Positions 1 to 18,341 of a stretch of 25,543 nt of DNA are shown piece after piece; position 1 is the stretch's first letter, and the number at the start of each line of letters is the position of its first letter. The notes below the pieces were generated by a model. That model saw only the letters and a list, made by a program, of their open reading frames with translations. It was not told the origin of the DNA and ran no database searches. The position numbers and the translations under genes are program-made. This DNA comes from a virus. Location: the IMG/VR virus record IMGVR_UViG_3300023108_000132, positions 1 to 25,543 of that record. One strand, 5' to 3'.

Positions 1-599
1 ATAGATTGTGTAGCGTTACAAGTTAAAGGGTCTCCATCGTTAGCTTCAATGTATAGGTTTTTAACTCCTGCTTTATTTTTAGATACTATCGTTAAATCAC
101 TACCATCTATTGTGTAGTCAAAATAGTCGGGATAGTTATTTGTGATTGTATAGTACGATATTGGGTCAACCCCTGCGGTAAAGTAAGAAGAAACGTCAAT
201 AGTAACCGTGTCTCCCCCTGTATCTAATGCTTGATTAGGAATACTTCCACTTGTTGTTACTCCTCCTGTACAAACAAAAGTAGGTTGTGTAGCCGTAGCA
301 GTACAATCTATTGTGTCATCTAAAGCATTTGTAAATTCAGGTGGAATGCTAATAGTAAATGTAACCGTTCTTGATGTATCACTGCCTACGGTAGCAAATC
401 TACCATCAGAGAAATCTCCATCAGAAGAAGTGTATGACAATATCGTTCCGTATTTAGGTGTTGGTTTTGTAACGTTACCAAATTGGTCAACGGAAAATCC
501 TTGTAGGTCTATTAGCGCACAAGTTAATTCCACACTTGGAGGTGTAGGTTCTCCATAACTTGCATAAAACGGACTTCTTACATTTATTTTAGTACTCAT
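1..599 (-). CDS. Ig-like/beta-rich tail structural protein, 3' end cut by window edge
   Basis: An open frame starts with ATG at 599 and stays open to the left edge (199 codons seen). It is the last gene of the tail block here, and its ATGA start overlaps the stop of the gp10-like gene. The N-terminus reads MSTKINVRSPFY, a start I associate with structural proteins of Bacteroidetes phages. The rest is rich in Thr, Ser, Val and Asp, with alternating beta-strand patterns and spaced Cys residues (CALIDL, CTATATQ, CTGG, CNATQS). This suggests tandem Ig-like or cadherin-like domains of about 90 residues. Position after tail-completion genes fits a tail tube, tail tip or decoration protein. The function is inferred from composition and context; the fold is not proven. 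Confidence 0.7.
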   Translation of the reverse strand, partial: MSTKINVRSPFYASYGEPTPPSVELTCALIDLQGFSVDQFGNVTKPTPKYGTILSYTSSDGDFSDGRFATVGSDTSRTVTFTISIPPEFTNALDDTIDCTATATQPTFVCTGGVTTSGSIPNQALDTGGDTVTIDVSSYFTAGVDPISYYTITNNYPDYFDYTIDGSDLTIVSKNKAGVKNLYIEANDGDPLTCNATQS

Positions 600-1117
600 T
601 TTTTCATATTTTGTTTAGCAACAAAGCTTATAAAGTTTTCTAAATCCAATCCAAAAGCCTTTTGTAATACTTCCGGCATATTTTTATAGTATTTCTCAAA
701 TGGTTTCGTAAAGAATAAGCTAGGTTTTATTCCATTATTGTAGATACTTCTAGCAATTAAGAATTGTAAAGACTTTCTAGATATGAATCTTCCATCTTCC
801 CCTCTAGGAGCAATTCCTCTTCTTACTATCCACTTGTCTAGCTTTCTAGGTGGAGGCATTTTATCTTTATAAGAGTAGGGTGTATTGTACTTCTTTTTGA
901 TACCACTTACCCCCCTATCGACAAAAGTTCCGTAGTTAGCCATCTCTATATTAAATTCTAGGCTATTTTCAGACGTTTTAACAGGGTTTCCCTTTATAGA
1001 CTTATATAGAGTACCACTAGATGATTTTTTTTGTCTTATAAGGTTTTTTTTAGCCTCGTCAATAACTTGGTCTCTGAATACCTCTAATGCCTTTTGTAAT
1101 TCTTGAAACTCTAGCAT
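596..1117 (-). CDS. HK97 gp10-like tail-completion/head-tail joining protein
   Basis: This 173-aa basic protein has the pattern of the HK97 gp10 family: an N-terminal helix (residues 1-30), then a central part with F-V-D-R-G-V-S-G and an R/K-rich stretch, then a C-terminal amphipathic helix near K-P-F-E-K. Such proteins act at the head-tail joint or tail terminus of siphoviruses and myoviruses. It overlaps the upstream gene by 7 nt and shares an ATGA junction with the downstream structural gene, so it is made in the same tail operon. Family membership is recognised from pattern and gene order. The exact role (joining versus tail completion) is inference. Confidence 0.6.
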   Translation of the reverse strand: MLEFQELQKALEVFRDQVIDEAKKNLIRQKKSSSGTLYKSIKGNPVKTSENSLEFNIEMANYGTFVDRGVSGIKKKYNTPYSYKDKMPPPRKLDKWIVRRGIAPRGEDGRFISRKSLQFLIARSIYNNGIKPSLFFTKPFEKYYKNMPEVLQKAFGLDLENFISFVAKQNMKK

Positions 1118-1578
1118 ATGTATATATCATTGTGAATTATCACATCAAAGGTAGTTGCCCATCCGGCTATCTTATTTTCGAAACGGTCAACGAATGGTTC
1201 GCATATTGGACTCCCCTCAAGTTGATATTTATTTTGGTGTAAGTTTCCAGAACGTAGTTTTTCTACCAATCTATTGATTACCGCTAATTGTGTATTCAAT
1301 ATATCTTGCTCGTTATCATTATCGACATATATGTCACTAGTTTCGTCTTTAGATTGGTCTACAATGTCCATAGTCATAACGGTTATATTGAAATTCAATA
1401 TTCTCTCGTTTTGAGTAACTGAGTTTATCATTACGTGAGCTAAAGGGAATATGGTTTGCTTAGATAAGTCAACTTGTGTTATATCTCCATATGTCACAGT
1501 ATTAATAGTATCATCTGCTATAAGCTCGTCACGTAGCTTGTCAGTAATTAAATAAAACCCTCTTGACCCCGTACTCAT
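1111..1578 (-). CDS. tail-completion/minor tail protein (putative)
   Basis: A 155-aa acidic protein starting at the ATG inside the ATGA that also ends the frameshifted chaperone frame. The N-terminal part (GFYLITDKLRDELIADDTIN) followed by a beta-strand region with VTYGD and VMTMDIVDQ resembles tail-completion proteins that sit beside gp10-like genes in siphophages. It contains an Asp/Asn-rich linker (residues about 82-92) and a second helix (AVINRLVEKLR). I do not recognise a named family with certainty; the assignment rests on size, predicted alternating fold and its place between the chaperone and gp10-like gene. Confidence 0.5.
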   Translation of the reverse strand: MSTGSRGFYLITDKLRDELIADDTINTVTYGDITQVDLSKQTIFPLAHVMINSVTQNERILNFNITVMTMDIVDQSKDETSDIYVDNDNEQDILNTQLAVINRLVEKLRSGNLHQNKYQLEGSPICEPFVDRFENKIAGWATTFDVIIHNDIYIC

Positions 1579-1829
1579 TTAAATTTGCTTTTTATTTGTT
1601 TCGCTTCCAAATCGTTTTTCTCTTTCTCAAAACACAATGCTAGTAGGCAAGTGTTTGCATTTAATTTTGTTATATCCTCAAATCTTGTAATGTCTCCCTT
1701 AGCAAGCGTATACACCGATTGATACCAACCCCACTTCCTTCCAAAGTTTTGTACCGCTCCAAGTCCGTTTGACTCGCTTCCTCCAAATATTTCGTCATAG
1801 CGTTCGACAAGTCTATCCCTAAATGATAA
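1575..1829 (-). CDS. -1 frameshift extension of the tail chaperone (gpT-like segment)
   Basis: In the -1 frame, codons from 1829 (TTA) read on for 84 residues to a TGA at 1575-1577. That stop overlaps the next gene's ATG as ATGA, the junction style used throughout this phage. The peptide is clearly protein-like: YDEIFGGSESNGLG, then FGRKWGWYQSVYTLAKGDIT and LALCFEKEKNDLEAKQIK. A TAG at 1842-1844 closes this frame upstream, and no ATG, GTG or TTG occurs between it and the conserved-looking part. Translation must therefore enter by slippage, most simply at GTT TTT TTT T on the T9 tract. The fused product would be about 254 aa (170 zero-frame residues plus 84). A true single-base deletion or sequencing error would look similar, though it would not explain the good zero-frame C-terminus. 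Confidence 0.65.
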   Translation of the reverse strand, partial: LSFRDRLVERYDEIFGGSESNGLGAVQNFGRKWGWYQSVYTLAKGDITRFEDITKLNANTCLLALCFEKEKNDLEAKQIKSKFK

Positions 1830-2338
1830 AAAAAAACCAAGCTACTTAATACGGCATCTAATGGAGTATGTTTCATAGCTTCGTGATATACATCTCCTCT
1901 ATACTCTTCTATCAAATACTTGTCTCCACTCTTCTTTTTAATGGGTCTATACAATACGGCTATTGCTTTATGCATATTATTCCAATTACCTAAGTTTGTG
2001 TCAATATCTATATACTCCCCAAAGGTCATATCATCTAGCTTAGGTATGAATCCAAATTCGGTATCTCCAACTTGAAACGTTCTTACCAAATCCGGTTTTT
2101 GAGACAATAGCTCTTCAATTTTGTTTACGATTTTACGGACATCTTGTAAGCGTATTTTAAGACCATCCTCGTAATTTATACCACAAAAGATTTCAAGAGT
2201 CTTTAACATATAAAATACATCCGGATTCTTAGTCTCATCTTTCATTTGGTCGTATTGAGTAATCATCTCTAGATATTTAGAGTATTGTTGCAAACTCAAT
2301 TCGCTTAATTTGGTAGGTATATTTACTTTCAATTCCAT
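1670..2338 (-). CDS. tail assembly chaperone, zero-frame product (gpG-like)
   Basis: A 222-aa helical protein. A longer frame opens at 2383, but its first 15 codons read out of a terminator T-run and a promoter-like motif, so I choose the ATG at 2338 (MELKVNIPTKLSEL). The middle part carries FGFIPKLDDMTFGEYID and AVLYRPI, which I associate with proteins of this position in Bacteroidetes phages. Around codon 167-170 the mRNA has nine consecutive U (1828-1836). The -1 frame from that point is open for 84 more codons and has no start codon of its own, so this gene probably encodes two products, as in lambda G/G-T. Such chaperones bind the tape-measure protein during tail assembly; here that role is inferred from the frameshift layout. 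Confidence 0.65.
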   Translation of the reverse strand: MELKVNIPTKLSELSLQQYSKYLEMITQYDQMKDETKNPDVFYMLKTLEIFCGINYEDGLKIRLQDVRKIVNKIEELLSQKPDLVRTFQVGDTEFGFIPKLDDMTFGEYIDIDTNLGNWNNMHKAIAVLYRPIKKKSGDKYLIEEYRGDVYHEAMKHTPLDAVLSSLVFFYHLGIDLSNAMTKYLEEASQTDLERYKTLEGSGVGINRCIRLLRETLQDLRI

Positions 2339-2985: not shown

Positions 2986-4146
2986 CTATCTAATGGCGTA
3001 TTTACCGTAATTAGGGCGTGATAGCTTATTGTAAGTGGCGTATCTACAAGCGTCAATACTGTGATTATAAGCATCTACCGGAGTATTTAACACAACTCCA
3101 TTCTTATCTTCTTTCCATTTGTAGTTACGAAATTCCTTTATAGTATTTGTGGATGCCTTAGTTACATACAATGTGTAACGCTTCAACATATCTATTCCAA
3201 TATTTATTGAATCTCTTCCTTTTGTTGCCGGTTTAATATTCCATCCAAACTTATATATCTCATCTATTGATTTAGGTTCAGCGGAATCCGCAAATATCTC
3301 AGCTCTTCTATTGACTCCTAATCTCTCAAGCTCTTTTGCTATGTCTCTATTAGTCATTCCGGTTCTGTATATCAACTCCTCGAAGTATAAGCTTGTGTCA
3401 CGCTTGTAGACTCCAATTAATGTCGTAGGGTCATTTGTATATCCAAAATCCATACCATAGCTTAAAAACTCTGCATCTTGCGGAATAGCGTCTATGAGAG
3501 TAGACCTAAATATCAAAGACTTTCCTACACCTACTTGACCTAGACCGTAGATATTCCAATATTGCTCATCGGTATCTCTTAGGCGTTCTATTTCGGCTTT
3601 AATAGAATCATCTAAGAATGGGTTATTTTTGTAGGTTGTAATAAAGAAGTCGGCATCGTCTCTTGTTTTTACCTTCTCGTATATCCAATGAAACTCATCC
3701 GAAGGGTTGTAGTCAATTATGATACGGTCTTTTGTACGGAATACTAATTGTTGCCAATCTTCCCAATGTAACTCGTTTGCCTCGTTTACAAATAATATGT
3801 CTCGCTTTCTACCCCTTACCTTAGTCGGTTGGTCTAAAGATATGAATTCAATTAGGTTACCATTTAATATGTATTCGGCACTAGACTTATTGTGTTTACT
3901 CTCATCGTATAGCTCATAGTTCCTTAGTATCTCAATAAAGTCTCTCATTGCAGATGTCCTAAGAGCAGGATATGTCTTCCTAGCAACCGATATAGTTTTC
4001 TTTGTGTTTTTTAAAGCGTACCCAAATATGAGCCACAATATAATATTGTACGTTTTGCCAGAGCGAGTTCCACCTTGCTCTATTACAATACGTTTTTTAG
4101 ACTGTTCAAGATGCCTAAATACAACATTACTCTTCAGATCCTTCAT
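2986..4146 (-). CDS. terL: terminase large subunit
   Basis: The packaging motor ATPase and nuclease that loads DNA into the prohead through the portal. The N-terminal ATPase domain has Walker A GGTRSGKT (residues 25-32) and Walker B ILFVNE (117-122), with the N-E pair typical of Terminase_3/PBSX-type proteins. The C-terminal RNase H-like nuclease has its acidic residues at GMDFGY (D233), FADSAEP (D287) and NHSIDACRY (D365). At 386 aa it is slightly short for the family but has every expected motif. The start overlaps the small subunit by 20 nt. It is separated from portal and capsid genes by about 16 kb and is instead at the end of the ParB-containing cassette, an unusual place. Confidence 0.95.
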   Translation of the reverse strand: MKDLKSNVVFRHLEQSKKRIVIEQGGTRSGKTYNIILWLIFGYALKNTKKTISVARKTYPALRTSAMRDFIEILRNYELYDESKHNKSSAEYILNGNLIEFISLDQPTKVRGRKRDILFVNEANELHWEDWQQLVFRTKDRIIIDYNPSDEFHWIYEKVKTRDDADFFITTYKNNPFLDDSIKAEIERLRDTDEQYWNIYGLGQVGVGKSLIFRSTLIDAIPQDAEFLSYGMDFGYTNDPTTLIGVYKRDTSLYFEELIYRTGMTNRDIAKELERLGVNRRAEIFADSAEPKSIDEIYKFGWNIKPATKGRDSINIGIDMLKRYTLYVTKASTNTIKEFRNYKWKEDKNGVVLNTPVDAYNHSIDACRYATYNKLSRPNYGKYAIR

Positions 4147-4495
4147 CTATGATTTCGACTCGGAAGTGATTATTGTTCCCCATATCAACCTCTTGTCTTT
4201 CAACATACCCTCTGTGTTTAGCTTTAGATTTTAAATAGAACATTATTGATGCCTCTTTTTTGTCTTGTATGTTCTCGAATAGCTTAGACTCTACAAAGTC
4301 GATTGTAGCCTCTATAATCTCTTTTGAAGCTCTATCATAGTCCTCATCCTCTTGACACCAACGGTAATGGGTTTGCCTAGAGATGCCTACTTTTCTACAA
4401 GCTACCGATACAATGCCTAAAGAATTTTCTAATGCCTCTATCATTGCGTCTTTCTTTTCCATACCCTTTTTTATATTGTCACTAATGTCACTCAT
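4127..4495 (-). CDS. terS: terminase small subunit (DNA-binding)
   Basis: A 122-aa protein just before the large subunit. Residues about 15-50 form a helix-turn-helix (SLGIVSVACRKVGISRQTHYRW) like the phBC6A51-type and other small terminases that recognise the packaging site. The middle contains FYLKSKAKHRGYVERQEV, a segment common near the end of such proteins, and the tail is acidic. The start touches the stop of the second ParB gene (TAATG, 1-nt overlap), and the end overlaps the large subunit by 20 nt, so the two terminase subunits are translated together. Confidence 0.88.
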   Translation of the reverse strand: MSDISDNIKKGMEKKDAMIEALENSLGIVSVACRKVGISRQTHYRWCQEDEDYDRASKEIIEATIDFVESKLFENIQDKKEASIMFYLKSKAKHRGYVERQEVDMGNNNHFRVEIIDEGSEE

Positions 4496-5037
4496 TATAT
4501 GTCTTTTTGGTCTAGTTCAAACTCCTCATAACAATGTGGGCAAGTTACGTTTACCTTCTCTTGTCTTACCTCATCTTTGTATTTGTTATCCATTTGGTGT
4601 TGTTGCTTCTCAAACTCTTCTTGAGTAGTATTGTCGAGATTGAATCCTACACTATCATCTAGCCAAGCTTCTAGATTAATGTTTTGAAAGTAGTCTTGCA
4701 TATCTACATTGTTACCTATCTCTCTTAGCTCAATCATTAAATCATCGTTATCCCATATAGTAAGCTCGTGAGTTTTATTATCAGCTATTCTATATTCTTT
4801 AGCTTTTTGTTCAGACAACTCTACCACTACACACTCTACTTCATCGTAACCTAATTGCATTAGTGCTTTATATCGAGCGTGTCCGGTTATTATAACATTT
4901 TTGTTATCTAAGACAAGCGGTTGGTTAAATCCGTATTTGCTAATAGATTTTTTTAGAGCCTCAACGGTTCGCTCATTTTTCCGAGCGTTTCTCCAATATG
5001 GTTTTATCTCAGATAATTTCTTCTTTTGGATTTTCAT
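4495..5037 (-). CDS. ParB/Srx-fold protein next to terminase
   Basis: A 180-aa ParB-like protein of the short phage type. Residues 6-90 make up the ParB/sulfiredoxin-like domain: KLSEIKPYWRNARKNE, ISKYGFNQPLVLD, then the nucleotide-binding signature ITGHARYKAL (about 50-59) and IADNKT. The C-terminal part ends with CPHC (166-169), a half zinc-ribbon. Phage copies often sit beside terminase or DNA methyltransferase genes. The family can bind nucleotides (CTP in true ParB) and DNA; some relatives have nuclease activity. It has no ParA partner here, so plasmid-type partition is unlikely. It overlaps the IbrB-like gene by 29 nt and terS by 1 nt. Confidence 0.85.
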   Translation of the reverse strand: MKIQKKKLSEIKPYWRNARKNERTVEALKKSISKYGFNQPLVLDNKNVIITGHARYKALMQLGYDEVECVVVELSEQKAKEYRIADNKTHELTIWDNDDLMIELREIGNNVDMQDYFQNINLEAWLDDSVGFNLDNTTQEEFEKQQHQMDNKYKDEVRQEKVNVTCPHCYEEFELDQKDI

Positions 5038-5674
5038 CTTTGTATTTCTTTTTTAATTGTAATTGCTTTTTTACTTCCCAAGCTTTTTTGTATTCTGTAT
5101 CTTCAAAGAGCTTACTAAATCCTGTGATGTGTTTCAATCTTATCAACTCTTCGGACTCCATTCCTAGCTCTTCTAATATCTCTGCGTCTTGCCATCCGTT
5201 GTCGAGCATCTCGAATACAATATTACTCATCCCACTTATAGAGTGCTTACCTCTAGCTCTATTGTGTCTAATTGTAGAAGCCATACGGTCGTTTATGTCT
5301 TTCTCTATTACTACTATCGGCAACTTACCGTGGTTTCTTTCTAGGATGTCCTTATAGCTTTTACAAGTAAAATACCTATGGAATCCATCTACTATAACGT
5401 ATTTATCCTTCTTTTTGTCATAAACTGTTACAACGGGTTGTGTATACCCATCGTGTGATATAGATGTATAGAGTAGCTTCATTTCGGTTTTAGCCACACT
5501 ATTAGGGTTGTAATCATTTGCTTGTACCTTATCTATATCTACCCACTTTACTCTGTTTATAGGTTGAGAGTTTAATGGGGATATGTCGTGAAGGAATTGT
5601 TGAACTTGTTCTAGAAATTCAATCTTGTCTTCAGCTTCATTATATTCTTTTATGAATTGTTCTTCAAATGTCAT
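5009..5674 (-). CDS. ParB-like protein of the IbrB/YbdM type
   Basis: A 221-aa protein whose ParB/Srx domain covers residues about 43-145. It shows VDIDKVQANDYNPN, SISHDGYTQPVV, the signature YVIVDGFHRY (92-101) and the later motif IRHNRARGKHS (135-145). The last motif and its partner make it the IbrB/YbdM subtype. In E. coli that protein is encoded beside IbrA/YbdN, a PAPS-reductase-like protein; here the same pair is joined by an ATGA overlap. The biochemical role of IbrB is unclear; regulation of gene expression has been described for the E. coli pair. C-terminal residues 150-221 are helical and basic, likely for DNA or protein contact. Confidence 0.82.
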   Translation of the reverse strand: MTFEEQFIKEYNEAEDKIEFLEQVQQFLHDISPLNSQPINRVKWVDIDKVQANDYNPNSVAKTEMKLLYTSISHDGYTQPVVTVYDKKKDKYVIVDGFHRYFTCKSYKDILERNHGKLPIVVIEKDINDRMASTIRHNRARGKHSISGMSNIVFEMLDNGWQDAEILEELGMESEELIRLKHITGFSKLFEDTEYKKAWEVKKQLQLKKKYKDENPKEEII

Positions 5675-6813
5675 TCCGGTATGTATCTGTTTTTTATTCT
5701 AGTGTATTTTACTTCATCCCCCCTTGCCCATCTTCTAAAGTCCTCCATCTCGGGTGTCTCTGTAAAGTTACGCAATTTATTTAAATCGATGTCGTTAGCC
5801 AATATGGTTTGGATTTCAGCCTTGATTAGGTTATCTCTCAAAAGCATCTTCTCATATCGTTTATCGTAGACCTCCCACTTCTTTGTAAACTTTTGTTTCA
5901 ACTTCTCATTCTTTACAAGTTTCTCTGTTAGAAAGTCTCTATACTCCTCCCAAGACCTAAACATAAATGGAAGCTCCTTTACAAAGTAATCATCTTTGCT
6001 TAGTTTTCCGGCAGTATCTATTCCGCTCATTCTTTTGGTAAGTGCAGTCCAAGTGTCTCTCTCAATTTCTTGTAAATAGAATAGAGTTTGTATTGCCGTT
6101 TCGTGATGTAGATTAGAGACTCTCATACTTCTTGTAGGTACGCCATACATATATTGGTAATCGTACACTTTTGTATATGTCCACTTATTATCGTGAATAG
6201 CTTTCCATATGTCTGTGTAGCTCCAATCATAAATGGGATAAAATGTATATTGATTTTTTTTCTCGTTTAGTTTCTTACCCCAAGTTATATATTTGTAAGT
6301 AGCATCTTGTGTCATAGCTACGTGTCGTCTAGGACTCTCTTCTGACCTCACTCCTCCGAGTAGGGCGGTTCTTTGAGGAAAATCCACCTCAATAATCTTA
6401 TTAAATAAGTCATAAAAGCTTTCTGTATTGTATTTATTTTCTTTTATTGAATACGGTTCTCTAGGTCTCATTGTTTCAACGCCATCTTCCCAAGCCGTTA
6501 TCCATTGTTTGAAATTAGACGTTGCATTGTATATCTTAAAAGGTATTTGATACCATCTTAAATCTACATCGGGGTCATCGTTTATCTCTCTCATATGGTC
6601 GATTACCGCTCCCCATTCCGCTTCTTGGTCTATAAAGATTGCCTTAACCGGTAGCCTACCCTTCTCTCTAGCCACCTCAATAGCTATTCTAAGCGTTACT
6701 GTCGAATCTTTTCCACCCGAGTAGCCTACTAGTACCTCATCGAATTCATCGTATAAATAACGGACTCTTTTTAAGGCTTCCTCATATACGTTGGTCTTTT
6801 TATATATTTTCAT
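5671..6813 (-). CDS. PAPS-reductase/DndC-like ATP pyrophosphatase (IbrA/YbdN type)
   Basis: A 380-aa protein of the adenine-nucleotide alpha hydrolase (ATP pyrophosphatase) fold. The PP-loop VGYSGGKDST (residues 29-38) binds ATP and releases pyrophosphate. It is followed by a conserved-looking FIDQEAEW (about 60) and a WYQIPF/W-rich segment near residue 85-105. The C-terminal third (EEYRDFLTEKLVK, DFRRWARGDE) looks like the DUF3440-type region of IbrA. Relatives include sulfate-assimilation PAPS reductases and DndC, which puts sulfur on DNA. No DndB/D/E or cysteine desulfurase is present, so classic phosphorothioation is not supported. The ATGA link to the IbrB-like gene and the 14-nt overlap with the glycosyltransferase show one translation unit. 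Confidence 0.8.
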   Translation of the reverse strand: MKIYKKTNVYEEALKRVRYLYDEFDEVLVGYSGGKDSTVTLRIAIEVAREKGRLPVKAIFIDQEAEWGAVIDHMREINDDPDVDLRWYQIPFKIYNATSNFKQWITAWEDGVETMRPREPYSIKENKYNTESFYDLFNKIIEVDFPQRTALLGGVRSEESPRRHVAMTQDATYKYITWGKKLNEKKNQYTFYPIYDWSYTDIWKAIHDNKWTYTKVYDYQYMYGVPTRSMRVSNLHHETAIQTLFYLQEIERDTWTALTKRMSGIDTAGKLSKDDYFVKELPFMFRSWEEYRDFLTEKLVKNEKLKQKFTKKWEVYDKRYEKMLLRDNLIKAEIQTILANDIDLNKLRNFTETPEMEDFRRWARGDEVKYTRIKNRYIPE

Positions 6814-7348
6814 CTTTGAATGTTATTGATTGTCTATATTTAGAACGTCTAGGATTTATTGCAGAAACAATCTTTTTGTGTTGTACTAAACTAGGTTGGT
6901 ATAGCCAATACTTTGTTTTAGTGCTTACCAAATAATCCCTTACCATTAAATCCATACCCGTTGGATGCTCCTCGATTCTATTCCATCCTTTGTTGTAAAA
7001 GTCTATTAATCCTTCAATATGATAGTTTGGAAAATATACACATAGATTGGACATAAAGCTAGATGGTGACATTAGGGTCGTTTGCTTTACACTTTTCTTA
7101 AGTGTCCAAAAATTAATTACACTATCACTATTATGGTTTATGAAAGCATTTGTATCATTGATAAAATCTTTTGACAATATAATATCATCTTCCATATATA
7201 AAGCACTATTGTTTTCAGCAAGCTTTAAAGTTTGTATGAAAGATTCAAGAGGTTTTTTATTTGTGTCGACATACACACTTACATTATTTAATTGACTTAA
7301 CAACAATGATATATCCCTCTCGGGAACATTTTGTATCAAATATTTCAT
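6800..7348 (-). CDS. small GT-A-type glycosyltransferase (putative)
   Basis: A 182-aa protein with the look of a compact GT-A glycosyltransferase: an N-terminal strand (KYLIQNVPERD), YVDTNKKPLESFIQTLKLA, then ALYMEDDIILSKDF (residues 49-62) with the acidic EDD metal-binding motif, and later HPTGMDLMVRDYL and YQPSLVQHKK, the usual C-terminal elements. It is shorter than most cellular enzymes (about 250 aa) but similar phage-sized versions exist. Substrate cannot be read; DNA bases, proteins or host surface sugars are all possible. It shares an ATGA junction with the methyltransferase and 14 nt with the IbrA-like gene, suggesting a common pathway. Confidence 0.68.
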   Translation of the reverse strand: MKYLIQNVPERDISLLLSQLNNVSVYVDTNKKPLESFIQTLKLAENNSALYMEDDIILSKDFINDTNAFINHNSDSVINFWTLKKSVKQTTLMSPSSFMSNLCVYFPNYHIEGLIDFYNKGWNRIEEHPTGMDLMVRDYLVSTKTKYWLYQPSLVQHKKIVSAINPRRSKYRQSITFKDENI

Positions 7349-8142
7349 AAATTAGAGACTATGTAGTAATTGTTCCATATTTTGATTTGAGACTTTTTAT
7401 ATATGTTTTGCAAATCTTTCTTAGTGTATTGATTATGATAAAATTCTACATTAGCTATTTCATATGTAATAGGTTTGTAATTCTTTTTATAAAACATTAA
7501 GAAGTGTTTTGATGATATGTCATAAACTCTACTAAGGTAATCGGGCAACACATAATTCATACAACCATATAAAGATACCGCTATGCCTACATTCCCGTTG
7601 AAAGTCTCAAGCTTGTCTACTTTAAATTTATGGTGCGGATATTTTTCTCTTGACCTTTTTATCATACCGTAGCTAGGGTCAATACCAATATAGTTTTCCG
7701 GATTTAAAGAAAACATATCTAGCAACAAACCTGTACCACTTCCAATATCTAATATGTCGACATTGTACAAATGAGGAATTAACATCTCTTGAATTTTTTT
7801 ATTCTCTTCTAGATATTTTTCATCCTTGAATAAGTCATCGTATATGTACGCTATTTTATTGTATTGCTCACTCACAAAAGTTTTATTAATTAATATTGTT
7901 TCCGATATGTCTGCTCCCATAGTCCACCACTTCCAACCTTTGTAGTGATAGCATATGTATTTTATATTCCAAAAACGCTCCTCCTTACCATTCTCCCTAA
8001 TAAACATTACTACATCCTCAAAATCTTTTTTTTCATTCCAAGTATCTTTTAGCGTATACCAATGTGGGTTTCTACTTTTAGCACTTTTGGCAAATCTATA
8101 ATCCGCACCCTCAAGTAAATCTATTACTTTTGTTTTTTCCAT
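7345..8142 (-). CDS. class I SAM-dependent methyltransferase with extra N-terminal domain
   Basis: A 265-aa protein. Residues 118-265 form a Rossmann methyltransferase: motif I VDILDIGSGTGLLLD (128-142), YIGIDPSYGMI for the acidic loop, then VGIAVSLYGCMNYV as motif IV region. It lacks the DPPY/NPPF motif of N6-adenine DNA methylases, so it is more like small-molecule, nucleoside or protein methylases. Residues 1-115 are a separate domain with NPHWYTLKDTW, GWKWWTMGADISETILINK and NKIAYIYDDLF; I associate this block with phage proteins of unknown role. An SD-like GGAGG lies 6 nt before the ATG at the TAATG junction with the DnaA-like gene. Confidence 0.8.
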   Translation of the reverse strand: MEKTKVIDLLEGADYRFAKSAKSRNPHWYTLKDTWNEKKDFEDVVMFIRENGKEERFWNIKYICYHYKGWKWWTMGADISETILINKTFVSEQYNKIAYIYDDLFKDEKYLEENKKIQEMLIPHLYNVDILDIGSGTGLLLDMFSLNPENYIGIDPSYGMIKRSREKYPHHKFKVDKLETFNGNVGIAVSLYGCMNYVLPDYLSRVYDISSKHFLMFYKKNYKPITYEIANVEFYHNQYTKKDLQNIYKKSQIKIWNNYYIVSNL

Positions 8143-8582
8143 TATCTACCTCCGTATTTTAAAGCGTCTATTCTATTTTGCAATCTTTTTATTTCTCTTT
8201 TGTAGTCTTTTTGCAAATCCAAAATCAACTTTGTTTGGTCTTCAAGATACATAATTCTTTCAACCGCCTTATCACTTTTAGGGAATCTAGAAATTGTTTT
8301 AACTTTTTTTAATACAACTTGCTCAATATCTCGATACAAGTATTTAAATTCCTTTGAGACATCTAATTGGTCTTTACAATATCTTAGACCGTGTAACACA
8401 GTCGAATGGTCTTTTTTAACAGTAGAGCCTATCTTTTCCAAGCTTTTGCCATCTGTGGCGTACTCTCTACATAAATAAAAATATATGTATCTAGCCTCTG
8501 CATATTCCCTCTTCCTTGTAGAGTTTTTTAAATTTAATCCGGTTTTATCTGAGACCGCTTTTAGTATTTGTGTTTTTGTCAT
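8142..8582 (-). CDS. free-standing DnaA domain IV-like DNA-binding protein
   Basis: A 146-aa protein. Residues 1-80 match the C-terminal DnaA-box-binding domain of bacterial DnaA: a helix-rich start, RKREYAEARYIYFYLCREY, then the signature KKDHSTVLHGLRYCK (56-70), which in DnaA reads the major groove of the 9-mer box. There is no AAA+ ATPase domain. Residues 105-146 are a coiled coil (YLEDQTKLILDLQKDYKREI), which probably makes it a dimer. It may bind the phage origin or compete for host DnaA boxes. The stop overlaps the methyltransferase start (TAATG) and its start overlaps the exonuclease by 4 nt. Confidence 0.85.
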   Translation of the reverse strand: MTKTQILKAVSDKTGLNLKNSTRKREYAEARYIYFYLCREYATDGKSLEKIGSTVKKDHSTVLHGLRYCKDQLDVSKEFKYLYRDIEQVVLKKVKTISRFPKSDKAVERIMYLEDQTKLILDLQKDYKREIKRLQNRIDALKYGGR

Positions 8583-13695: not shown

Positions 13696-13740
13696 ATATA
13701 AAGTTTAAAAGTTTACGCTAAGATATAAAAAAATATTATA

Positions 13741-15971: not shown

Positions 15972-18341
15972 TTATGCTATTGCTAAATAGATGTAAGTTT
16001 CGTTTAATGTATTAACATCGCTTCCACTTCCTTGTAAGGTAAATCCATTTGTTTCAAAATCTAAAGTATTTGAGGTTGAATCACTTTCTGAATTGTTTAA
16101 ATTCGCCCATAATCCTGAATTTCTTGGGTCAGAAGTGTTTCTCGCTGCATCTACTATTCTCCAATTTCCTGTATTTGAAGATTCTTTAATCATTAGCCAT
16201 CTTGGCTGAAATCCTGTCGTAACTGTATTACCAGCACTTCCCGTTCCCGTATAACTCCCCACCTTCTGATAACCATCTACTGAATGGAATGCGTAAAATA
16301 AAAATCTATCCAAATTGCCTGTAAAAGCATCTTCAATTCTTATTTCAGTAGAAGTTGCAACACTAACACCATTTAAAGTATCATCTACAAACGCATCTGT
16401 AGTATTAAGTTTTCCCCTGTCTGTTGAACCGTCAATTATATTAGTAAATGTGTGCCAATTACTTGTTGCATCAAGTATTTTTGTAATTACAAGTTCAGGT
16501 GTTGAGTTTAGTCCGTGAGTAAAATCTGTTCTATGGTTAGATGCTGTATGATTTGGGTCTATTTCATATATACCAAACCCTGATGCTGTATTTATAGAAC
16601 ATCCTGTAAAAGTTGGACTGTTTCCCCCATTACCTGTTATTGACAATCCCGCAGCACCTAAAGTTGCGTGTCCTGTTCCATCAATATTATATGTACCTGC
16701 TGAACCTCCTGCTTTCCAACACCAAGCGACATATTGTTGAGATGAACCACTTCCATTAGTCGCATCACTACTACTAACAGTAAACCCATTAGAATCAAAA
16801 GAAGTTAATTCATCAGTTGCATAACTCTCTGCATAATCGTGATTTATTCTTAATCTATTTCCTGCACCTCTTACTGAATCAAAAGCGTGATGATTTCTTG
16901 TAGAACCTCCACTTCTCTTTTTTATCCAAACTAAATCAGGTTGGAATGCCATACCTAAAAAGTTTACGTTGGTAGGTGTTCCGTCAAATCCAAAAGATAC
17001 ATTAGTTGCAGCACCATCGTAGTTTGTAGTTTCGTCTGTTGCATCTCCATCTAATTTGTAATATGCTACATAATCTGTTGGAATAGATGCGGTAGTATTA
17101 TTATATAAATATCCTACTTCTTGGGAAGTCAATTTATCAGGATATATTCTTACATCGTCAATTTTACCTTTAAAATAGTAGTCATCACCATTCCCCCATT
17201 GTCTACCAATAGTTGTTGTTCCGCTCGGAGCAGGAAAAGATGATACAGTTCCACTAGATAAGTTGGTTGTCATTGTTAATTCTGAATTATTCAACCAAGC
17301 ACTATATCCTGCATTACTATCAAATGTAAATACAATATGATTCCACCCTGAATTTACTGTAACTATTCCCGCGGTTTGGTATAAATATGCTCCATTACGA
17401 ACTTGCATACTAAAATAAAAGTCTGAACCATCCCAATATAGCCCTGCACCTGCCCAAGTAGTGCTTCCGCCTATTGACTGACTCCATAATTTTCCTTGGG
17501 TGGCGGATATACTTGAATCCACATCAAACCACATAGAAATAGATTGACCAAATCCTATGTTTGGAGAGCCTGTTATATAACTATTAGTTCCATTAAACAC
17601 AGCCGCTCCACCAAAATTACCATTTACTCCCCCTGTATCATTAGCATCCTCATCTAACTCATATAAAGCAATACCGTGTCCATCCCCAAATATATCCGTA
17701 GTTGATTTAGTACTACTTGCGTAGGTTTCTCCATATAGAGTAGTTACTTCTGAAGGGGATAATGCTTTGTCAAAGATTCTTACTTGGTCTATTTTACCGT
17801 GCATCGAGCCAACTCCTGTAGTATGATATTTTCCAAAACCTTCCCAAGAACCTGATGGATTAGAATTTCCTGTAGTATCTCCATTCGTTGCTACGGGAGT
17901 TGAATTTCCATTTAAATAAATATTTTTACCACTTGTACTACTTGAAGTATATACTATATGATACCATTGCCCTGTTGATATTACATTAGATGTAGTATTA
18001 AAAGTGCTTGTTCCATTATAAGTAGCAATCTTTCCGCCATCAAATATAGCTAAATACCACCAAGTATTTTTATAAGCCTCATAAATTACTCTATAATTTG
18101 ATGCTGCTGCCAAACTATCAAAATAAACCCAGCAAGAAAAAGAATAGTCATTAACGGGTATTAAACTTGGAGTTTCTATATAACTACTACTCCCATCAAA
18201 AGCAGCACCCTTTCTTATATACCCTGTTATCTTTTGTGTACCACCGTTTCCTGTATAGGTTACAGTTTCAAAGTTTTGTAAAGGGTCAAATGCTGCAGGT
18301 GCAGCCTCCGCTCCTGTATTTATAAGTCTTTTATTAATCAT
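15972..18341 (-). CDS. large LamG/DUF7483-like tail fibre or receptor-binding protein
   Basis: A 789-aa secreted-type, cysteine-poor protein without a signal peptide, as expected for a virion part. Residues about 40-205 and 235-410 are two LamG (concanavalin A-like) domains, each with GSWEGFGKYHT/TTIGRQWGNGDD-type strands and a closing KIDQVRIFDKALS or KIDDVRIYPDKLT motif. Residues about 455-789 carry paired modules of the DUF7483 kind: FQPDLVWIKKRSGG, FDSVRGAGNRL, YVAWCWKAGG, then FQPRWLMIKESSNTG and FETNGFTLQGSG. LamG folds bind polysaccharides, so binding to the host surface is likely. Start is a TAATG overlap with the preceding gene. Confidence 0.75.
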   Translation of the reverse strand: MINKRLINTGAEAAPAAFDPLQNFETVTYTGNGGTQKITGYIRKGAAFDGSSSYIETPSLIPVNDYSFSCWVYFDSLAAASNYRVIYEAYKNTWWYLAIFDGGKIATYNGTSTFNTTSNVISTGQWYHIVYTSSSTSGKNIYLNGNSTPVATNGDTTGNSNPSGSWEGFGKYHTTGVGSMHGKIDQVRIFDKALSPSEVTTLYGETYASSTKSTTDIFGDGHGIALYELDEDANDTGGVNGNFGGAAVFNGTNSYITGSPNIGFGQSISMWFDVDSSISATQGKLWSQSIGGSTTWAGAGLYWDGSDFYFSMQVRNGAYLYQTAGIVTVNSGWNHIVFTFDSNAGYSAWLNNSELTMTTNLSSGTVSSFPAPSGTTTIGRQWGNGDDYYFKGKIDDVRIYPDKLTSQEVGYLYNNTTASIPTDYVAYYKLDGDATDETTNYDGAATNVSFGFDGTPTNVNFLGMAFQPDLVWIKKRSGGSTRNHHAFDSVRGAGNRLRINHDYAESYATDELTSFDSNGFTVSSSDATNGSGSSQQYVAWCWKAGGSAGTYNIDGTGHATLGAAGLSITGNGGNSPTFTGCSINTASGFGIYEIDPNHTASNHRTDFTHGLNSTPELVITKILDATSNWHTFTNIIDGSTDRGKLNTTDAFVDDTLNGVSVATSTEIRIEDAFTGNLDRFLFYAFHSVDGYQKVGSYTGTGSAGNTVTTGFQPRWLMIKESSNTGNWRIVDAARNTSDPRNSGLWANLNNSESDSTSNTLDFETNGFTLQGSGSDVNTLNETYIYLAIA

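Follow-up and report, generated by a model that had tools for sequence, protein, structure and literature searches.

How does a reading frame that has no start codon of its own come to be expressed, and what would its product do? A gene in an IMG/VR viral record raises this question; the whole stretch of that record analysed here, 25.5 kb in length, is referred to as the window. A preliminary description had placed the end of the zero frame at 1670 and had found a -1 frame open from a TAG at 1842-1844 to a TGA at 1575. It had joined the two by a slip at a run of nine U and had compared the gene with the gpG/gpGT pair. The coordinates were confirmed, and the features are collected in Table 1.

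Table 1. Coordinates of the frameshift gene and its neighbours in the window
Feature	Position	Strand	Remarks
Zero-frame ORF	1670..2338	-	222 codons; ATG at 2338, stop ends at 1670; residues 1-170 form the shared N-terminal domain, followed by a 52-codon zero-frame C-terminal tail; relatives aligned from residue 1
Slippery U9 run	1828..1836	-	Heptamer U_UUU_UUU at 1835-1829; zero frame GUU UUU UUU UAU
19-mer signature TTTTTTTTTATCATTTAGG	1818..1836	-	Spans the U9 run and the beginning of the dual-coded stretch
-1-frame extension	1575..1829	-	84 codons and TGA; joined to the shared domain by the proposed slip
Dual-coded overlap	1673..1828	-	52 codons; both frames constrained (synonymous randomisation, wobble divergence)
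Next gene	1111..1578	-	155 codons; ATG overlaps the -1 stop; matches phrog_30964 (unknown function)
HK97 gp10-like tail completion or neck gene	596..1117	-	173 codons; phrog_29822, E 8e-38
Terminase large subunit	2986..4146	-	Upstream, same strand; phrog_5653, E 4e-35, and others

Reading frames and slip site

The -1 frame of the window opens just past the TAG (1844-1842) and closes at the TGA at 1577-1575. A slip on T_TTT_TTT within the U9 run would join 170 zero-frame residues to 84 residues of the -1 frame, in agreement with the earlier proposal. No ATG occurs in the -1 frame of the window, and the earliest GTG lies 38 codons past the slip. The end of the -1 frame and the start of the next gene overlap in an ATGA junction, as had also been noted, and the same junction was observed in 98 of 128 relatives. 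Further A9 or T9 runs are found in the window at 13740, 24634 and 24749, all of them between listed genes.

Relatives were sought in IMG/VR with each product alone, giving more than 80 relatives each and 261 and 419 confirmed stretches. The peptides used in the search with the zero-frame product exclude the T run, so the resulting set is unbiased at the slip site; one peptide in the search with the -1 extension and one in a later search do touch the run. Both parts were present on the contig at 158 IMG/VR loci, and at all 158 the gene was laid out in two frames with a -1 offset. A fused single frame was found at none of these loci. Each of the 128 distinct sequences (duplicates removed) contained T9 (115) or T10 (13), so phased that T_TTT_TTT is available, and none had a run shorter than nine. 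Identity in the shared domain drops to about 36%. The T run is thus more than chance, because it is kept in phase in all of the distinct relatives. Conservation of the two frames and of the slip site is established by these counts, and the single uninterrupted frame that would have contradicted the preliminary description was not encountered among the relatives.

The same arrangement, with T9 or T10 in phase, was found in 46 further distinct and more distant relatives, and two Bacteroidota MAG contigs contain it as well. Moreover, in a DNA-only scan of IMG/VR with the 19-mer signature (T9ATCATTTAGG), in which no protein query was involved, 78 of 79 new loci were the gene with both frames homologous. 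A homolog, about 31% identical, is located downstream of the terminase gene in the Nonlabens phages P12024S and P12024L. It contains CTTTTTTTTTATCATTTAGGGAACGAC, a zero-frame tail of 25 codons and a -1 extension of 81 codons; the P12024S record lists P12024S_38 and P12024S_39 as two separate hypothetical proteins and carries no frameshift annotation. The gene family is spread over a large group of flavobacteria phages.

A separate start for the second frame was rejected, since the -1 frame holds no usable start codon. Ahead of the conserved -1 part, ATG is absent from all 128 sequences, and in 127 of them it occurs neither upstream of the slip nor within 10 codons past it. When ATG, GTG and TTG were all considered, an upstream candidate in the -1 frame was seen in 4 of the 128. 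The lack of an independent start is therefore established, as the preliminary description had claimed.

Codon choice at the run was compared with that upstream in 44 representatives. The Phe codons of the run are preceded by a V, L or I codon, whose third base is T in 42 of the 44, versus 25% of upstream V/I/L codons; in the two exceptions a third TTT is present. Within the run, Phe is encoded by TTT in 90 of 90 cases, versus 83% upstream.

Double coding past the slip

The overlap past the slip typically covers 47-57 codons; in another clade it can reach about 84, and in a few sequences it is 7-25. Both frames had been suspected to be coding in this long stretch, and synonymous randomisation and wobble divergence both bear the suspicion out. 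In the randomisation, the residues of one frame were fixed and synonymous codons were redrawn from the genes' own usage. When the -1 residues were fixed, the zero frame stayed open for a mean of 8.7 codons versus the observed mean of 52, and the observed length was reached with a mean chance of 1.6%. In the reverse randomisation, with the zero-frame residues fixed, the -1 frame was left open in 1.3%.

In pairs at 70-86% identity, substitutions at -1 codon positions 1-3 amounted to 16, 10 and 37% in the -1-only part and to 19, 12 and 22% in the overlap. At conserved residues, the -1 wobble divergence of the overlap was 0.58 times the value for the -1-only part (bootstrap over sequences 0.50-0.74). 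It was 0.05 in the first nine codons past the slip, versus 0.33 in the -1-only part, rose to 0.16 in the second nine, was about baseline in codons 18-29 and then fell again. The profile therefore indicates that constraint on the zero-frame tail falls mainly on about the first 17 codons and is weaker towards the far end. Avoidance of stop codons fails to explain the drop, because only 6.6% of -1-silent changes would make a zero-frame stop. These results support the overlap past the slip as a dual-coding region with each frame under selection. Substitutions that leave both proteins unaltered are rare, at about 2% per site or less, so that an extra RNA signal right after the run is inseparable from double coding.

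The length of the zero-frame tail varies among relatives. In one relative only (L033), the tail stops about 7-9 codons past the slip and the -1 extension is intact, which hints that the full-length zero tail is dispensable. Together with the short tail of the P12024 group, this stop suggests that the full length is not essential everywhere. In freshwater relatives (L188-L231), zero-frame tails of 79-84 codons lie within a 92-codon -1 extension, which is thus almost wholly double-coded.

Mechanism of the frame change and role of the products

The arrangement is probably best explained by a programmed shift to the -1 frame at U9, yielding two proteins that would act as a pair of tail assembly chaperones in the manner of lambda G/GT or P2 E/E+E'. 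Most decoding would stop in the zero frame and give a protein of 222 residues. In a minority of cases, a -1 slip on U_UUU_UUU, or an mRNA with one extra U, would lead to a protein of 254 residues, which would have its first 170 residues in common with the short form and a different, helical C-terminal domain of 84 residues. By analogy with gpG/gpGT, the abundant short form would coat the tape measure protein, the rare long form would recruit tail-tube subunits, and both would be absent from the virion. We infer the slip itself, its efficiency and the chaperone role.

The slip may also be transcriptional, as the preliminary description had allowed. RNA polymerase would then slip on T9 and add a U, and a share of the mRNAs would specify the long protein with no shift by the ribosome; the products and their use would be the same. 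This is a serious candidate, to which we give somewhat less than an even chance. The T run never falls below nine in 128 sequences, and nine is where slippage becomes important in many bacteria; Baranov et al. considered a 9T run conserved among homologs to be probably used for transcriptional slippage (PMC1088944). A stimulatory RNA structure was not found: pseudoknot-free folding of the downstream region in 44 representatives gave a mean folding z of +0.16 to +0.21, no better than shuffled or control windows. Programmed -1 frameshift genes often, though not always, have such a structure. Moreover, the third (+1) frame has a stop 2-3 codons past the run in all 128 relatives, which would also cap the products of an opposite slip. 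However, the ribosomal heptamer T_TTT_TTT is likewise always present, and nine T also follow from the coding of V/I/L, FF and then Y/W; 37 of 209 alignment columns are similarly limited to residues with T as the second base. The +1 stop, too, is largely forced by double coding, being a result of the dual-coded LG/FR pair. Ribosomal -1 slippage and transcriptional slippage thus both fit the sequences, and the invariant T9 fits both.

A more specific version of the proposed frame change may be put forward tentatively. The U9 slip, possibly by RNA polymerase, might act as a switch between two separately selected C-terminal domains drawn from the same 50-84 codons, giving a short and a long chaperone each with a functional tail. 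If true, such a double-coded chaperone switch would be one not described for phage tails.

The role of the products was approached through genome context, family models and predicted folds. The order in the window is the terminase gene, two small genes, the frameshift gene, a terminator-like gene and a neck/tail-completion-like gene. The next gene looks like a tail terminator, a label that we infer. The neck/tail-completion-like gene matches PF04883 only weakly (E 0.11); for its relative in P12024S, phrog_5, 'tail completion or Neck1', was a further match (E 4e-4). Several genes downstream, relatives have a possible tape measure gene, the assignments of tape measure and tail tube being themselves weak. 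Chaperone genes of the G/GT type usually, though not always, stand between those for the major tail protein and the tape measure.

Several other genes on the minus strand of the window were also noted. A cluster at 4495-8142, adjoining the terminase genes, contains two ParB N-terminal-domain genes, a PAPS-reductase/DUF3440 gene, a weak glycosyltransferase-25-like gene and a methyltransferase, and is suggestive of DNA or surface modification. A small protein at 8142-8582 has a DnaA C-terminal DNA-binding domain (PF08299, E 1e-14) without the ATPase part. At 15972-18341, a protein of 789 residues with two LamG/concanavalin-like stretches and a DUF7483 domain is a probable adhesin or tail fibre.

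Searches of Pfam, NCBIfam and PHROG gave no match to a chaperone-labelled family; in these libraries the zero frame matched only families of unknown function (phrog_32199), and the -1 part had no firm match. AlphaFold predicted the zero-frame protein with a mean pLDDT of 82, with about 90 in the shared domain and less than 50 in the distal zero tail, and the -1 extension as three helices with a pLDDT of 74. The BFVD fold search returned many unnamed viral relatives first; the first named tail proteins after them were tail assembly chaperones, matched weakly (E 0.26-0.5). No significant match was obtained in BFVD with the -1 domain. Sequence searches of the PDB with profiles of both parts revealed no relevant match, and fold searches of the PDB gave just helix-level matches to unrelated proteins and no relative.

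A structural relative of the shared domain was observed in Flavobacterium phage 6H (L235:10047-10927, minus strand; Foldseek E 5e-5, TM about 0.35). It lies upstream of the tape measure gene, and about 300 unannotated bases behind it hold a chaperone-like frame in another register. Phage 6H thus possibly has a frameshift in this region that its record does not annotate.

The pair may instead be truly frameshifted and serve another purpose, for example with the long form as a structural neck or connector protein that bears a C-terminal extension. The gene adjoins neck/terminator-like genes and not the tape measure gene, and it has no direct family match. On the other hand, -1 frameshifted pairs in tail modules are typically chaperones according to PMC5009743 and to Xu et al. 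2004 (cited in PMC10885494), and the weak fold matches point in the same direction, so we regard a non-chaperone role as unlikely. A tail assembly chaperone pair is accordingly a plausible reading of the tail-module position and the weak structural matches. It is our best guess, with a fairly good probability by analogy, because frameshifted pairs in tail modules are typically chaperones. Of the gpG/gpGT-type pair in the preliminary description, the general likeness stands; the family models do not name it, the fold matches are weak, and the gene is not directly before the tape measure gene.

Changes in the length of the T run might also toggle the fusion between virions, as phase variation, since T9 runs can mutate by replication slippage. 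However, no fused-frame allele occurs at the 158 loci, and the codon arrangement of the 13 T10 sequences preserves the -1 offset, making this very improbable. Homopolymers are error prone, but an assembly or sequencing error, a recent deletion or a pseudogene in what should be one frame is effectively refuted by two contigs from other metagenomes (L002, L003) with a zero-frame protein identical to that of the window and the same T9, by the same arrangement in the cultured isolate P12024S, by the absence of fusion among the 158 relatives, and by purifying selection on both frames.

Comparison with known systems

As in the proposed reading of this gene, the longer product of lambda G/GT acquires its alternative C-terminal domain through a -1 change late in a tail gene. 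The lambda slip sequence is GGGAAAG. The lambda frames, however, overlap by 19 nt; the overlap here measures about 150-170 nt and can reach about 250 nt in the freshwater clade. The lambda pair lies directly before the tape measure gene, whereas the gene described here is several genes upstream of a putative one, and sequence similarity between the two was not found.

P2 E/E+E' resembles the present gene in its U-run slip site, its -1 frame and an extension that overlaps the start of the next gene. The P2 run is T6G, in contrast to T9A here, sequence similarity is undetectable, and E' reaches just 37 nt back into E (PMC3931495). In Shigella mxiE, the insertion of one nucleotide in a U run brings two overlapping frames together into a longer product (PMC1088944); that gene encodes an unrelated cellular regulator, and its mechanism has been shown by experiment, whereas the one here is proposed from sequence.

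P12024S and P12024L share a homologous gene, a T9ATCATTTAGGGA site, a -1 extension and the position after the terminase gene. Their gene differs in being 31% identical, in a zero-frame tail of just 25 codons and in its listing as two hypothetical proteins. Recoding is, to our knowledge, little studied in Bacteroidota, and Nonlabens with P12024S/L provides a cultured host-phage pair in which the mechanism is directly testable.

No description of frameshifting in these phages was found in the openly readable literature; most subscription papers, including the 2004 survey of tail frameshifts, lay beyond this scope. The frameshift trick itself is already known from phage tail assembly; the gene family and its long double-coded stretch appear to be undescribed before. 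The current work adds a widespread, so far unannotated family, detectable by its 19-base signature, to the known phage frameshift genes. As the preliminary description had remarked, the overlap is unusually long: it is several times longer than the short overlaps of lambda and P2, and selection on both frames over such a length is unusual for tail chaperones.
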